NCBI RefSeq assembly: GCF_011801125.1
Contig: NZ_CP046171.1
Location: forward strand, 7,316,001-7,380,000
Length of the DNA stretch: 64,000 bases
Source of the DNA: Nocardia brasiliensis
Lineage (GTDB): Bacteria; Actinomycetota; Actinomycetes; Mycobacteriales; Mycobacteriaceae
Direction: 5' to 3'
The notes below the pieces were generated by a model. It had not been told where the DNA came from, ran no database searches, and was given only the letters and a program-made list of their open reading frames with translations. Below are positions 47,708 to 54,370 of the stretch, piece after piece. Both the position numbers and the translations under genes were made by a program. The stretch's first letter is position 1; the number at the start of each line of letters is the position of its first letter.

Positions 47708-47869
47708 GTGAAACTGCGCGCACTCCTACATCGTCGACATGCGGACCACGTTCCGCTGCTGCCGGGCGGCGACACCGAAGCAGGCACCGCCCGCGGCCCC
47801 TCCCCCGAGAACCTCGAACGTCTGCTCACCAACGACGAGCTCGATCTCATCCGGCACCACCTGCTCTGA
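47708..47869 (+). CDS. possible small protein upstream of the REC-TrxR gene
   Basis: A 53-codon frame starting at GTG 47708, with GAGGTGATC upstream. The product begins MKLRALLHRRHADHVPLLPG and ends SPENLERLLTNDELDLIRHHLL. The C-terminal half looks like an amphipathic helix, and composition is protein-like rather than the Arg/Pro pattern of shadow frames. It lies 67 bp before the REC-TrxR gene on the same strand, so it may be the first gene of that operon. I know no family. The next 67 bp contain no clear terminator. Confidence 0.45.
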   Translation: MKLRALLHRRHADHVPLLPGGDTEAGTARGPSPENLERLLTNDELDLIRHHLL

Positions 47870-47936
47870 CCGGCCATATCGTCCGCCTCGAGCGAACGTT
47901 GACGCTGCGTTTCGCACGACCGTACATACTCGATAG

Positions 47937-49604
47937 GTGACTTCACCCGCTGCCACGAAACCGGCCATCCTGAGCGTCGACGATGATCCCGGGGTCTCCC
48001 GAGCGGTTGTCCGTGATCTACGCCGCCGCTACGGGGCCGAATACCGGATTCTGCGCGCGGAATCGGGCGCGCAGGCGCTCGAGGCGCTGCGTGAGATGAA
48101 ACTGCGCGGCCAACCGGTCGCGGTCCTGATCGCCGATTACCGGATGCCGGGCATGGACGGCATCGAATTCCTGGAGCAGGCCATGGACCTGCACCCGTAT
48201 GCCCGCCGCGTCCTGCTCACCGCGTACGCCGACACCAACGCCGCGATCAACGCCATCAACGTGGTCGACCTGGACCACTACCTGCTCAAGCCGTGGGATC
48301 CCCCGGAGGAGAAGCTGTATCCGGTGCTGGACGGGCTGCTCGACTCCTGGCGCAGCAGCGAGCATCGACCGGTGACCGAGACCAAGGTGGTCGGCAACCG
48401 CTGGTCGCCGCGGTCCTCGCAGGTGCGCGAGTTCCTGGCCCGCAATCAGCTGCCCTACCGGTGGTACCTGGCCGACGAGCCGGAGGGCGCGCGGCTGCTC
48501 GAGGCCGCGGGCGCCGATCCCGAGCGCTGCCCGGTGGTGATCACGGCCGCCGGTGACGCGCTGGTCCAGCCCTCGGACAGCCTGCTCGCGGAGCACGTCG
48601 GGCTCACCGTCAACGCGACCGGCGACTTCTACGATCTGATCGTGGTCGGCGGCGGTCCGGCCGGGCTGGGCGCCGCGGTGTACGGCGCCTCCGAGGGACT
48701 GCGCACGGTGCTGGTGGAGCGCACGGCGACCGGCGGACAGGCCGGGCAGAGCTCGCGCATCGAGAACTATCTCGGCTTCCCGGACGGTGTGTCGGGCGCC
48801 CAGCTGGCCGACCGGGCCCGCCGCCAGGCGGCGAAGTTCGGCGCCGAGGTGATCACCACCCGCGAGGTGGTCGGGCTGGAGGTGAACGGTTCGGCGCGCA
48901 CGGTGCGCTTCGCCGACGGCGGCAGGCTGTGCGCGCACACGGTGATCATCGCGACCGGCGTGGACTATCGCAGGCATCCGGCGCCCGGCGTCGACGAGTT
49001 CACCGGGCGCGGGGTCTATTACGGCTCTGCGATGACCGAGGCGTCCGAGTGCGCCGATCGCGACGTCTACATCGTGGGCGGGGCGAACTCCGCGGGTCAG
49101 GCCGCGGTGTTCCTGTCCCGCAACGCGAAGACGGTGCACCTGGTGGTGCGCGCGGACTCGCTGGACAAGTCGATGTCGCACTACCTGATCCAGCAGATCG
49201 CGCAGATCCCGAACATCAAGGTGCACACCAACACCGAGGTGAGCGCCGCCGACGGCGACGACCACCTGCAACAGATCGTGCTGCGCGACAACGTCTCCGG
49301 CGCCGAGGAGAAGGCAGAGGCCGAGCGGCTGTTCCTGTTCATCGGCGCCGCACCGCAAACCGATTGGCTCGACGGCGTGGTCAAGCGCGACGATGCGGGC
49401 TTCGTGCTGGCCGGGCCGGACCTGATGGTCGACGGCGCGCGGCCCGCGGGCTGGGAATTGCCCAGGCCGCCACACCATTTGGAGACGAGCGTGCCCGGCG
49501 TGTTCGTGGCGGGCGACGTGCACGCCGATTCCGCCAAGCGGGTCGCCTCGGCGGTCGGCGAGGGTGCGATGGCCGTGATGCTCGTGCACCGGTACCTCGC
49601 GTAA
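47937..49604 (+). CDS. response regulator fused to Grx-like and TrxR-like domains
   Basis: A 555-residue three-part protein. Residues 10-130 are a REC domain with acidic pair in SVDDDPG, phospho-acceptor Asp67 (LIADYRMPGMDG), Thr95 and Lys118 (LLKPWDPP). Residues about 150-225 resemble a glutaredoxin-like fold (SQVREFLARNQLPYRWYLAD) without a CxxC. Residues 230-550 are thioredoxin-reductase-like, with FAD site VVGGGPAGLGAAVYGASEG, NADP site IVGGANSAGQAAVFL and VFVAGDV. The redox CATC motif is replaced by GSAM, so disulfide reduction is unlikely. The start is GTG at 47937. The kinase gene follows 15 bp downstream. Confidence 0.9.
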   Translation: MTSPAATKPAILSVDDDPGVSRAVVRDLRRRYGAEYRILRAESGAQALEALREMKLRGQPVAVLIADYRMPGMDGIEFLEQAMDLHPYARRVLLTAYADTNAAINAINVVDLDHYLLKPWDPPEEKLYPVLDGLLDSWRSSEHRPVTETKVVGNRWSPRSSQVREFLARNQLPYRWYLADEPEGARLLEAAGADPERCPVVITAAGDALVQPSDSLLAEHVGLTVNATGDFYDLIVVGGGPAGLGAAVYGASEGLRTVLVERTATGGQAGQSSRIENYLGFPDGVSGAQLADRARRQAAKFGAEVITTREVVGLEVNGSARTVRFADGGRLCAHTVIIATGVDYRRHPAPGVDEFTGRGVYYGSAMTEASECADRDVYIVGGANSAGQAAVFLSRNAKTVHLVVRADSLDKSMSHYLIQQIAQIPNIKVHTNTEVSAADGDDHLQQIVLRDNVSGAEEKAEAERLFLFIGAAPQTDWLDGVVKRDDAGFVLAGPDLMVDGARPAGWELPRPPHHLETSVPGVFVAGDVHADSAKRVASAVGEGAMAVMLVHRYLA

Positions 49605-49619
49605 ACAGGAGGCTGGCAG

Positions 49620-51122
49620 ATGAATTCGAACGACACCGCGGACCGCAGCAGCAGGCTGGTCTGCGACCCCGCGGAACTGCGCACGCTGTTCCTGTTCGAG
49701 AAGTTGAACGACGAGCAGCTGGCGTGGCTGTGCCGGGACGGGCGGATCGAGACGATCGAGCCCGGCCTCGTCTTCCGCGAGGGCGACCCGGCCACCTGCT
49801 TCTACGTGCTGATGGACGGCGAGGTCGTGCTGACCAAACTGTCCGGCGGCACGGAGGTCGAGCTGGTGCGCACGCAGCATCACGGCTCCTACGCGGGCGC
49901 GTGGAGCGCCTATCTCGGCGACAAGGTCGACCAGACCTACAACAGCTCGATGTCGGTGACCAGGACGTCACGGTTCTACGTGCTCGACGCCGCGATTTTC
50001 GCGCAGATGATGCACGAGTGGTTCCCGATGGCGGTGCACCTGCTCGAGGGCGTGTTCTTCGGCAACCGCAACGCCAACGCCAGGGTCGGCCAGCGCGAGC
50101 GGCTGCTCGCCCTCGGCTCGCTGTCGGCGGGCCTGACCCACGAACTGAACAACCCCGCCGCCGCCGCCGTCCGGGCCACCTCCGGCCTGCGCGAACGGGT
50201 CGCGGGCATGCGGCACAAGCTGGCCATGATGGCCGACGGGAAGTTCGACACCGCCTCCCTCGGCGCGCTGGTGCGGCTGCAGGAGGAGGCGGCCGCGCAG
50301 GTGGCCAAGGCGCCCGAGCTCACCCCGATGGAGGCCGCCGATCGCGAGGACCTGCTCGGTGAGTGGCTCGAGGAGCACGGCATCGTCGACGGCTGGAACC
50401 TTGCGCCGAACTTCGTGCAGGCCGGCTTCGACGTGGACTGGCTCGAGCGGGTGGCAGGCACCCTGGAGGGCTGCACCGAGCAGGTGTTCCAGGGCGCGAT
50501 CCGCTGGTTGAACTACACCATCGAGACCGAGCTGATGATGAACGAGATCGCGGACTCGACCACCAGGATCTCGTCCCTGGTCAACGCGGCCAAGCAGTAT
50601 TCGCAGATGGACCGGGCGCCGTTCCAGGTGGTCGACATCCACGATCTGCTCGACAGCACGCTGGTGATGCTGAGCCGCAAGATCGGTGACGGCGTCGAAG
50701 TGGTCAAGGACTACGACCGCGCGCTGCCCGAAGTACCGTGCTACGCGGCGGAATTGAACCAGGTGTGGACCAACCTGATCGACAACGCGGTGTACGCGAT
50801 GCAGGGCCGTGGCACGCTGACCATCCGCACCAGGCACGAAAACGACTGTGCCGTCGTCGAAATCGGGGACACCGGGCCCGGCATTCCGGACGACGTGCGC
50901 ACCAGGATCTTCGAACCGTTCTTCACCACCAAGCCGATGGGCGAGGGCACCGGGCTGGGCCTGGACATCTCGTTCCGGATCGTGGTGAACAAGCACGACG
51001 GCGACATCCAGGTCGACTCCGTGCCTGGCAACACACGGTTCACGGTCTGGTTGCCGCTGCACCCGAACACGGACAACACCACCGACGACGCCACCCCATC
51101 GACCGCAGGAGAGCAGCGATGA
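49620..51122 (+). CDS. cytosolic histidine kinase with cyclic-nucleotide-binding-type sensor
   Basis: A 500-residue soluble sensor kinase. The N-terminal Crp-like cyclic-nucleotide-binding domain spans about 20-140 (GLVFREGDPATCFYVLMDGEVVL). The phospho-accepting His174 lies in LSAGLTHELNNP. The ATP-binding domain has the N box NQVWTNLIDNAVYAM (about 380-394), G1 GDTGPGIP, F box FEPFFTTKP and G2 GEGTGLGL. No membrane span is present. Downstream of the REC-TrxR gene by 15 bp and overlapping the zinc-finger gene by ATGA, it is the obvious partner kinase. The Glu/Arg pair that binds cAMP phosphate is not evident, so the ligand is open. Confidence 0.92.
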   Translation: MNSNDTADRSSRLVCDPAELRTLFLFEKLNDEQLAWLCRDGRIETIEPGLVFREGDPATCFYVLMDGEVVLTKLSGGTEVELVRTQHHGSYAGAWSAYLGDKVDQTYNSSMSVTRTSRFYVLDAAIFAQMMHEWFPMAVHLLEGVFFGNRNANARVGQRERLLALGSLSAGLTHELNNPAAAAVRATSGLRERVAGMRHKLAMMADGKFDTASLGALVRLQEEAAAQVAKAPELTPMEAADREDLLGEWLEEHGIVDGWNLAPNFVQAGFDVDWLERVAGTLEGCTEQVFQGAIRWLNYTIETELMMNEIADSTTRISSLVNAAKQYSQMDRAPFQVVDIHDLLDSTLVMLSRKIGDGVEVVKDYDRALPEVPCYAAELNQVWTNLIDNAVYAMQGRGTLTIRTRHENDCAVVEIGDTGPGIPDDVRTRIFEPFFTTKPMGEGTGLGLDISFRIVVNKHDGDIQVDSVPGNTRFTVWLPLHPNTDNTTDDATPSTAGEQR

Positions 51123-51472
51123 CAGCGGAACTCGAAGGCATCGACCCCGGCGCGGCGCCGAGCGGCACCGGCTGTCTGGAATGCGAACAGGCACAAGGCT
51201 GGTGGGTGCACCTGCGCCGGTGCGCGCAGTGCGGCCACATCGGCTGTTGCGACTCCTCGCCGCAGCAGCACGCGAGCAAGCACGCGAAAGCGACCGGCCA
51301 CCCGTTCATTCAGAGCTTCGAACCGGGCGAGGACTGGTATTGGAACTTCCAGACCGAGCAAATGTACGGCGACGGACCGGAACTCGCGCCGCCGACCAGC
51401 CACCCCGCCGACCAGGGCGCGCCCGGTCCGCGTGACCGGGTGCCAGCGGACTGGCGGGCACACATCCACTGA
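51119..51472 (+). CDS. UBP-type zinc finger protein
   Basis: A 117-residue protein with a UBP-type zinc finger. Metal ligands are Cys19, Cys22, Cys35, Cys38, Cys43/44, His51, His55 and His61, in the order C-x2-C, C-x2-C, C, H-x3-H-x5-H. GCLECEQAQGWWVHLRRC and KHAKATGHPFIQSF are clear family sequence. In eukaryotes this fold binds the free C-terminus of ubiquitin; bacterial versions are of unknown role. A conserved EDWYWNFQTEQMY follows the finger. The ATG overlaps the kinase stop (ATGA), so it is translated with the two-component genes. Confidence 0.88.
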   Translation: MTAELEGIDPGAAPSGTGCLECEQAQGWWVHLRRCAQCGHIGCCDSSPQQHASKHAKATGHPFIQSFEPGEDWYWNFQTEQMYGDGPELAPPTSHPADQGAPGPRDRVPADWRAHIH

Positions 51473-52069: not shown

Positions 52070-54370
52070 GTGGCAGAACTAGCGCTCACCGCTCGATGGA
52101 ATCCGTCCGCTGCCGACGCCCGCCGCGGGGTGGTGCGGCTGCATCCAGAGGCGCTGGCCGCGCTCGGACTGCGAGAGTGGGACGGCATCGCGCTGGTCGG
52201 CGCGCGGCGCACGGCCGCGGTGGTCGGCGTCGCGCCCGCGGGTACCCCGACCGGCATCGCGTTGCTCGACGACGTGACGCTGTCCAACGCGGGGCTGCGG
52301 GAGAACGCCACCGTGATCGTCGCGCCGGTCACCGTGTACGGGGCGAAGCAGATCTCGGTGAGCGGTTCGGTGCAGGCGACCCGCACCATCGCGGCGGCGA
52401 CCCTGCGCCAGGCCCTGCTCGGCAAGGTGGTCACCGTGGGCGACGCGGTCTCGCTGCTGCCCCGCGACCTCGGCCCCGACATCAGTTCCGCCGCTGCCGC
52501 CCAGGCACTTTCGCGCACCTTCGGCATCGCCTGGACCACCGAGCTGCTCACCGTCACCGCCACCGATCCGCACGGGCCGGTCAGCGTGCAGCCGAACACC
52601 GCGGTCGTGTGGGGCGCGGGGGCGGTCGCGGCGCGCGACGCCGCCGACCGGGCGCAGGCCGGGGAGCCCGCCCCCACCGGCGCCGCCGCCCAGGCCGCGA
52701 CCGAGGCCGCAGCCTTCGACGGCGCGGCCGCGGTGAACGGCGCGCCTGCGGGCAGGCACGGCGCGGTGCGCGATGTCGCGCCGCGGATCACCGTCAAGGA
52801 TCTGGCGGGCGCGCACAGCCAGGCGAGCAAGCTCGCGGAGTGGCTCAGCCTCGCCCTCGACGAGCCCGAGCTGCTCAAAACCCTCGGCGCCACACCGCAT
52901 CTCGGCGTCCTGATCACCGGGCCCGCGGGGGTCGGCAAGGCGACGCTGGCGCGCGCGGTCACCGCCCCGCGCCGCATCGTCGAACTCGACGGCCCGACCA
53001 TCGGCGCGGCCGAGAGCGGCACCCGGCTGCGCGAGGTCGCCGAGGCGGTCGCCGACGCGTGTTCCGGCCAGGGCGGCATCCTGCTGATCACCGACATCGA
53101 CGCGCTGCTGCCCGCGCAGGCCGAGCCGGTCGCCACGCTCATCCTCGATCAGCTGCGCGCCGCCGTCGCCGAACCGTGCGTCGCGTTCCTGGCCACCACG
53201 GCGCATCCCGCCGATGTCGATGCCCGGCTGCGCGCGCCCGACCTGTGCGACCGTGAACTCGCGCTGGCGCTGCCCACCGCCGCAGTGCGCCGATCGCTGC
53301 TGGAGCAGCTGCTGCGCCAGGTACCGGTCGCCGACCTGCGCCTAGACGACATCGCCGCGCGCACACCGGGTTTCGTCGTCTCCGACCTGGCGGCACTGTG
53401 CCGGGAGGCGGCGTTGCGCGCGGCATCGCGGGCGAGCAAGGAACACACCGACCCGCGATTGACCCAACCGGATCTGCTCGACGCGCTGACCGTGATCCGC
53501 CCGCTCTCGCGCTCCGGCATGGACGAACCCGCCATCGGCAGCCTCACCCTGGACGAGGTCGGCGACATGGTGGAGACCAAGCAGGCCCTCACCGAAACCG
53601 TGTTGTGGCCGCTGCGACACCCGGATTCGTTCGCGCGCCTCGGCGTCGACCCGCCGCGCGGCGTGCTGCTCTACGGCCCGCCCGGCTGCGGCAAGACCTT
53701 CCTGGTGCGCGCGCTGGCCGGTACCGGTCAGCTGAGTGTGCACACCGTCAAGGGCGCCGAGCTGATGGACAAGTGGGTCGGCTCGTCCGAGCGGGCGGTG
53801 CGCGAATTGTTCCAGCGCGCCCGCGATTCCGCGCCGTCGCTGATCTTCCTCGACGAGGTCGACGCGCTCGCCCCGCGGCGCGGGCAGAGCAGCGACTCCG
53901 GGGTCGGCGATCGCGTGGTCGCCGCGCTGCTCACCGAACTCGACGGGGTGGAACCGCTGCGCGATGTCGTGGTGCTCGGCGCGACGAACCGTCCCGAGCT
54001 GATCGATCCTGCCCTGCTGCGGCCCGGCAGGCTGGAACGGCTGGTCTTCGTGCCGCCGCCGGACAGCGCGGCCCGGCTGGCCATCCTGCGCACGGCGGGC
54101 CGCTCGGTGCCGCTGGCCGGTGACGTCGATCTGCCCGCGCTGGCACGCGGCCTCGACGGGTTCTCCGCGGCCGACTGCGCCGCCCTGCTGCGCGAGGCGG
54201 CGCTGGCGGCGATGCGCCGCGATGTCGAGGCCGCCGATGTCACCGCGGCCGACGTGGCGGCGGCGCGCACCGTGGTGCGCGCCTCGCTGGACCCGCTCCA
54301 GGTCGAATCGCTGCGCCGCTACGCCGACGCCAAGGGACAGCCGACCGGCAGCGAGGGCCGCTACCTCTAG
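52070..54370 (+). CDS. CDC48-like double AAA+ ATPase
   Basis: A 766-residue actinobacterial CDC48/p97-like ATPase, related to M. tuberculosis Rv0435c. An N-terminal double-psi barrel-like domain (about 1-100) is followed by two AAA modules. D1 has GPAGVGKATLAR in place of GxxGxGKT and LLITDIDALL without the Walker-B Glu, so it is probably inactive. D2 is intact: GPPGCGKTFLV, LIFLDEVDALAPRRG and the sensor region VLGATNRPELIDPALLRPGR with both arginine fingers. It ends at YADAKGQPTGSE. Substrates are unknown. In M. tuberculosis it adjoins pssA; here it is 9 kb away. Confidence 0.9.
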   Translation: MAELALTARWNPSAADARRGVVRLHPEALAALGLREWDGIALVGARRTAAVVGVAPAGTPTGIALLDDVTLSNAGLRENATVIVAPVTVYGAKQISVSGSVQATRTIAAATLRQALLGKVVTVGDAVSLLPRDLGPDISSAAAAQALSRTFGIAWTTELLTVTATDPHGPVSVQPNTAVVWGAGAVAARDAADRAQAGEPAPTGAAAQAATEAAAFDGAAAVNGAPAGRHGAVRDVAPRITVKDLAGAHSQASKLAEWLSLALDEPELLKTLGATPHLGVLITGPAGVGKATLARAVTAPRRIVELDGPTIGAAESGTRLREVAEAVADACSGQGGILLITDIDALLPAQAEPVATLILDQLRAAVAEPCVAFLATTAHPADVDARLRAPDLCDRELALALPTAAVRRSLLEQLLRQVPVADLRLDDIAARTPGFVVSDLAALCREAALRAASRASKEHTDPRLTQPDLLDALTVIRPLSRSGMDEPAIGSLTLDEVGDMVETKQALTETVLWPLRHPDSFARLGVDPPRGVLLYGPPGCGKTFLVRALAGTGQLSVHTVKGAELMDKWVGSSERAVRELFQRARDSAPSLIFLDEVDALAPRRGQSSDSGVGDRVVAALLTELDGVEPLRDVVVLGATNRPELIDPALLRPGRLERLVFVPPPDSAARLAILRTAGRSVPLAGDVDLPALARGLDGFSAADCAALLREAALAAMRRDVEAADVTAADVAAARTVVRASLDPLQVESLRRYADAKGQPTGSEGRYL

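Follow-up and report, generated by a model that had tools for sequence, protein, structure and literature searches.

Most bacterial response regulators act on DNA. The operon analyzed here, which lies on the + strand of a 64,000-nucleotide stretch of Nocardia DNA (the window), encodes a response regulator predicted to act through an attached flavoenzyme, followed by a histidine kinase and a small UBP-type zinc finger protein (genes 1, 2, and 3). The same fusion of a receiver (REC) domain to a thioredoxin reductase (TrxR) is found in public records under the name 'fused response regulator/thioredoxin-disulfide reductase', and on sequence gene 1 falls within this group. The name implies disulfide reduction, yet the catalytic CxxC was absent from every member examined. 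The system can be regarded as a two-component variant with enzymatic output, the fusion itself being already in print as a 'Mycobacterium-like combination' in one paper (PMC5847659). A second group, made up of CNB-domain proteins recorded as 'thioredoxin-disulfide reductase' in Rhodococcus, Deinococcus, and Streptomyces plasmid records, has the same glutaredoxin-like and cysteine-less TrxR-like body (~40-49% identity), often with a zf-UBP gene adjacent, as here. These proteins differ in having the CNB domain joined to the enzyme itself, with neither a REC domain nor an adjacent kinase.

Low-Mr (low relative molecular mass) thioredoxin reductases and AhpF have the fold and the FAD and NAD(P)H motifs in common with gene 1, and in AhpF thioredoxin-fold domains precede the reductase; gene 1 differs in having no dithiol and a REC domain in front. 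The likeness to TrxR-like ferredoxin/flavodoxin NADP+ reductases consists of fold-search matches only, and gene 1 adds REC and thioredoxin-like domains. The finger of gene 3 is of the same family as a bacterial zf-UBP protein deposited as 'hypothetical protein' (PDB 2ida, 89 bits). No experimental description of a system of REC-TrxR, kinase, and finger was found in the open-licence literature, and passages of PMC4506424, PMC8945050, and PMC9025218 do not describe one.

We consider it reasonably probable that the operon encodes a soluble two-component system with an enzyme as its output, a zinc finger protein as partner, and a one-component twin in other genomes. The Crp-like CNB domain of the kinase would sense an intracellular signal, the kinase would autophosphorylate His174 and hand the phosphate on to REC residue Asp67, and the phosphorylated REC domain would alter the activity of the attached flavoenzyme. 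The flavoenzyme would transfer hydride from NAD(P)H to FAD, and electrons would then pass to an acceptor such as a protein, a quinone-like molecule, or O2, presumably not a dithiol because the CxxC sites of both TrxR and glutaredoxin are lacking. The zf-UBP protein would be a partner of the flavoenzyme, and the whole would be the two-component version of a one-component enzyme made by direct fusion of a CNB domain to this kind of flavoprotein. The sequences themselves show the order of genes and domains, the intactness of the phosphorelay residues, the loss of the cysteines, the coupling of the kinase to an intact REC domain, and the co-occurrence of the finger; transfer of the phosphate, its consequence for the enzyme, the nature of the electron acceptor, and binding by the finger are inferences. 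Such an output could let a bacterium adjust its redox chemistry through phosphorylation itself, and not via gene expression, which, if true, would be an unusual mode of bacterial redox regulation.

Genomic coupling of the kinase to the enzyme

Gene 1 (47937..49604) encodes 555 amino acids and is separated by 15 bp from gene 2 (49620..51122; 500 amino acids), which overlaps gene 3 (51119..51472; 117 amino acids) at an ATGA, in agreement with the preliminary description of three same-strand genes. The REC domain of gene 1 (residues 11-123, 47967..48305; Pfam PF00072, 56.6 bits) is intact, as had been claimed, with the key residues D16, D17, D67, T95, and K118 of a two-component receiver all present, and the domain attached as its presumed output is indeed that of a flavoprotein (Pyr_redox_2, 113.1 bits).

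Adjacency of kinase and enzyme was examined in samples fetched by either gene. A kinase-based contig scan gave 60 loci, for which kinase adjacency is no test because they were fetched by their kinase; the enzyme adjoined it in 59, the exception being a distant cyanobacterial kinase (L062). The enzyme-fetched sample was 198 Actinomycetota genomes, 37 of which had a match at E <= 1e-90. Of the 53 matches one was the window itself; the other 52 were examined, with an intact REC domain defined as one having D16, D/E17, D67, T/S95, and K118. A same-strand kinase was encoded directly downstream of 23 of the 24 intact-REC enzymes, but of none of the 19 with a degenerate REC domain (0/17 assessable, since two end at a contig end) and none of the seven without one (Fisher p = 1.6e-12 for 23/1 versus 0/24, not corrected for relatedness). 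The two remaining matches were cut at the N-terminus, one with a kinase and one without. Among plasmid REC-type loci, seven were chosen from 13 records of 80% coverage or more, and six of these intact-REC enzymes, from Tsukamurella, Streptomyces, Deinococcus, Caballeronia, Gloeothece, and Nostoc sp. C052, had a kinase directly downstream; on the Nostoc edaphicum plasmid a transposase and a bestrophin gene lay between enzyme and kinase. In all, enzyme and kinase adjoined in records of four phyla, which indicates that their pairing goes beyond chance; the preliminary description had asked for conservation in other genomes.

Because adjacency depends on the integrity of the REC domain, control of the enzyme by the kinase is well supported by this comparison of genomes, and the earlier proposal of a phosphorylation-controlled flavoenzyme is supported to the same extent (23/24 versus 0/24). 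Adjacency is indirect evidence, and the two genes could be neighbors for co-regulation only, with the kinase serving some other regulator, but the dependence of adjacency on an intact REC domain makes this very unlikely. The enzymes whose REC domain is degenerate, a pseudo-receiver on the same flavoenzyme, include paralogs at L125-L128, L160, L161, L163, L164, and L167; the genomes G028, G013, and G042 each have more than one.

The kinase is predicted to be soluble, as no membrane span was apparent on reading its sequence. The N-terminal Crp-like domain noticed earlier was recovered as a cNMP_binding match of 30.9 bits (cut-off 27.5) and extends over residues ~20-150 (49677..50069) in Pfam and in an alignment with a Crp-like protein of its own genome. 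The phospho-acceptor motif HELNN (H174, 50139..50141) and the G-boxes DTGPGI and GTGLGL were present, and HATPase_c was matched at residues 378-481 (50751..51062; 87.5 bits, 1e-24). No HisKA match was reported in the Pfam scan, which would be explained by a predicted helical insert at residues ~211-281 (50250..50462) that splits the DHp hairpin between its two helices in the AlphaFold2 model (mean pLDDT 76.3, pTM 0.37). Ordinary histidine kinases were among the 50 matches listed in a fold search, which did not place the insert.

In the alignment with the Crp-like protein, the window kinase has Ala and Tyr at the positions of the two CRP cassette residues, Glu and Arg, and sensing of cAMP through a canonical cassette was rejected for this kinase. 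None of 12 kinases and six CNB-enzymes had an Arg in the cassette column, although in four of them (L131a, L101a, L117, L119) an Arg stands just before an alignment gap, so that loss of the cassette Arg is not established there. Elsewhere in the genome, CNB-containing frames of ~470-510 residues were found at G000:C1:4457138-4460106, 3211039, 2815420, and 2917387, two of them close together; these may resemble family 2 encapsulins.

Six of the seven REC-less enzymes had a cNMP_binding domain of their own (L116, L117, L119, L166, L169, and L173), while none was detected in the seventh (L168) at E 0.01, and in the Rhodococcus and Agrobacterium plasmid versions tested the domain was fused to the enzyme too. 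Beside REC enzymes, the CNB domain was found in the tested kinases of the window and of L101, and in the second kinases encoded close to the enzymes of Deinococcus and Caballeronia. One genome of the same genus (G050) had, at the threshold used, only the CNB-enzyme, with the finger adjacent. The pair of CNB-kinase and REC-enzyme thus looks like a two-component form of a one-component CNB-enzyme. On the Rhodococcus sp. PD04 plasmid (L135) the one-component version is part of a single co-directional cluster, dnaK-grpE-J domain-cbpM-clpB-trxA-UBP-CNB-enzyme, which may tie this version to protein-folding stress.

The swap between one and two components predicts the direction of the signal clearly: fusion of the CNB domain to the flavoprotein in kinase-less versions implies that the signal enters through the CNB domain and that the flavoprotein is what it acts on. 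The opposite direction, in which the flavoprotein is a sensor whose NAD(P)H/FAD redox state modulates phosphorylation of the REC domain or the activity of the kinase, with the output elsewhere, would suit a cysteine-less enzyme that has no obvious acceptor. The HELNN motif of the kinase is also one that would permit phosphatase activity. Such a sensor is unlikely in our judgment, given that a sensory CNB domain is already part of the kinase and that the kinase-less fusions point from CNB domain to enzyme.

Cysteine sites of the flavoenzyme

The labels 'Grx' and 'TrxR' given to gene 1 by the preliminary description stand for the folds and fail for catalysis. The TrxR-like domain (residues 231-555, 48627..49601) has the TrxR fold and the FAD and NAD(P)H motifs, with GGGPAG at 238 and GGANSAG at 381, but at the site of the redox CxxC it has GSAM (residues 363-366, 49023..49034, aligned to 7p9d), and 0/240 homologs had CxxC there. 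Its score against the NCBIfam thioredoxin reductase family TIGR01292 (228.8 bits) did not reach the cut-off of 343.45. The thioredoxin/glutaredoxin-like domain (residues ~149-220, 48381..48596) is a putative assignment from the strand-helix pattern of a model; Pfam had no match in this region, and the domain was not searched alone. In place of the CPYC-type site of a glutaredoxin it has RWSPRSSQ, and none of the 238 homologs of 240 in which the motif was located had CxxC. Thioredoxin reductase and glutaredoxin were both rejected as identities on catalytic residues, both CxxC sites being empty (SPRSSQ and GSAM), and dithiol chemistry of the TrxR/Grx type is contradicted by the missing cysteines.

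Because both motifs are absent, gene 1 probably encodes an NAD(P)H flavoenzyme that works independently of thiols, and the gene family is probably mis-annotated as disulfide reductase; the names in public records are contradicted by the sequences that bear them. The enzyme might be a thiol reductase after all, working through C372, the cysteines of the finger, or a dithiol borne by the substrate. C372 was at least 90% conserved in one alignment (A1), the chaperone cluster of Rhodococcus holds trxA-UBP-CNB-enzyme, and an S-(hydroxymethyl)mycothiol dehydrogenase gene lies 3' of the Tsukamurella operon. No cysteine is universal, however, and with both CxxC sites empty we think such a reductase rather improbable.

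The zinc finger and Pup

Gene 3 encodes a UBP-type zinc finger, as had been described (zf-UBP, 49.5 bits, cut-off 22.7; residues 19-82, 51173..51364). Of the 198 genomes of the phylum sample, 45 had zf-UBP, among them 31 of the 37 enzyme-bearing ones (p = 1.4e-19); in a sample of 61 genomes from the family it was found in 40, including all 31 with the enzyme (p = 1.2e-9). These counts mix free fingers with fingers fused to exchangers, and the genome lists behind the finger, Pup, and enzyme counts were transcribed by hand. Within ~8 kb of the enzyme, a finger was present at 11 of the 24 intact-REC, one of the 19 degenerate, and two of the seven REC-less enzymes, some on short contigs; in the named set, 45 of 59 enzymes had a finger within 8 kb. 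It also adjoins the kinase-less enzyme versions L116 and L117. Since no kinase stands beside these REC-less, finger-adjacent enzymes, the enzyme is a likelier partner of the finger than the kinase is. The suggestion that the zinc finger is a partner is supported insofar as it accompanies the enzyme in 31/37 and 31/31 genomes and beside L116 and L117, and this link suggests a role for the zf-UBP proteins of bacteria that can be tested.

The same preliminary description had proposed that the finger reads a Pup-like tail. Steering of the enzyme to tagged proteins by a finger that reads Pup or a ubiquitin-like tail would fit the zf-UBP fold, and Pup and the finger did co-occur above chance. A Pup match was found in 92 of the 198 genomes, 91 of them above the Pfam cut-off (G039 was below), and in 35 of the 45 finger genomes (p = 2e-6; p = 0.003 in enzyme-less genomes). 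Among enzyme-bearing genomes the link was not significant (24/31 versus 3/6, p = 0.31). The association of finger with enzyme was seen both in genomes with Pup (24/27 with the enzyme versus 11/65 without it) and in those lacking it (7/10 versus 3/96). A Pup match was absent from 10 of the 45 finger genomes, seven of which had the enzyme, and the finger was absent from 57 of the 92 Pup genomes. The Arg after CG in eukaryotic zf-UBP domains binds the C-terminal tail of ubiquitin. This CGR was absent from all 120 nearest relatives of the finger, all of which had GCC[DE]; in the window finger, GCCDSS, the Asp faces the CGR Arg in an ungapped alignment with USP16 and the Ser does so in a gapped alignment with USP49. 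The Pup-tail reader was rejected, and a reader of any such tail is highly improbable.

A more specific role for the finger is speculative, and we would not expect it to be correct in full: the finger, in which the additional cysteine of GCC[DE] is conserved, would be the electron acceptor of the enzyme or a docking adaptor, written by redox state and targeting stress-proteostasis factors, with the CNB-kinase gating a thiol-free enzyme and the one- and two-component forms interchanging in evolution.

A second zf-UBP finger in the same genome forms the C-terminus of a Na+/H+ exchanger (G000:C1:3922382-3922564; L001, L144), a protein that scored 167.8 bits with PF00999 and 46.8 with zf-UBP. In other genomes fingers were likewise found within open frames of ~625-675 residues.

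Several observations weigh against the two-component system with enzyme output and finger partner. The finger is not obligatory: it was absent from six of the 37 enzyme-bearing phylum genomes, 14 of the 59 named loci, some of them truncated where a contig ends, had none within 8 kb, and the only finger of G227 sits in a 653-residue frame. An intact-REC paralog (L165; 39% identity, with a TGA inside the match) and the N-terminally cut enzyme L162 had no downstream kinase, and the downstream kinase of Nostoc edaphicum (L133) has a REC domain in place of the CNB domain. In addition to its conservation in A1, C372 was seen in a different alignment in 22 of 29 proteins with an intact REC domain, and single-cysteine chemistry through this residue is conceivable; CxxC was found at another position in six of the 240 homologs. 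The predicted pose may reflect the training of the program. In addition, only the best candidates per genome were scored, seven in the phylum sample and 23 in the family sample, and the genomes are not independent samples.

Transcription start and neighboring genes

The host genome is 7.95-Mb, and its nearest protein relatives are in Nocardia brasiliensis and its kin. Upstream of gene 1 is a 53-amino-acid open reading frame (47708..47869) with a GTG start and a Shine-Dalgarno-like sequence, described earlier as possible. That it is coding was borne out: 43 sequences including that of the window (42 relatives) aligned with conserved ends, and the window and L003 copies differed at 2, 1, and 14 sites in codon positions 1, 2, and 3. 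The gene was found 5' of the enzyme in Nocardia, Aldersonia, and Antrihabitans. Its membership in the operon was not borne out, and it was rejected as the first gene, since a conserved -10-like element stands 3' of it. Separated from gene 1 by this motif, the small gene probably belongs to a separate or a read-through unit, outside the core system.

The element, CATACT at 47925..47930, ends 6 nt 5' of the GTG of gene 1. At 49 of 55 loci an ATA[CA]T ended exactly 6 nt before the gene 1 start, and at three others the distance was 7 nt, against a chance expectation of ~0.01 at one fixed offset, the 55 loci being related. A Shine-Dalgarno-like sequence preceded gene 1 at only two of 55 loci, compared with 22 of 22 for the kinase and 24 of 35 for the finger. 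The fixed motif and the scarcity of Shine-Dalgarno-like sequences suggest a leaderless mRNA that starts at gene 1. A scan for generic consensus sigma-70 promoters gave no sites.

PADLOC gave no match to a known anti-phage system for the three proteins, and a search for other recurrent neighbors of the locus returned what appear to be mainly shadow open reading frames and lineage synteny. A CDC48-family double AAA ATPase gene (52070-54370, + strand) lies 3' of the operon in the window and in many Nocardia loci, and does not adjoin the operon in L030, L037, and L042-L044. The presence of this ubiquitin-system fold near a ubiquitin-finger fold is probably a coincidence. On cyanobacterial plasmids (L133, L134, L139), Nostoc and Gloeothece have in common a glgX - AGE epimerase - REC-enzyme neighborhood, and a low-temperature-requirement A gene was nearby in both Nostoc plasmid records.

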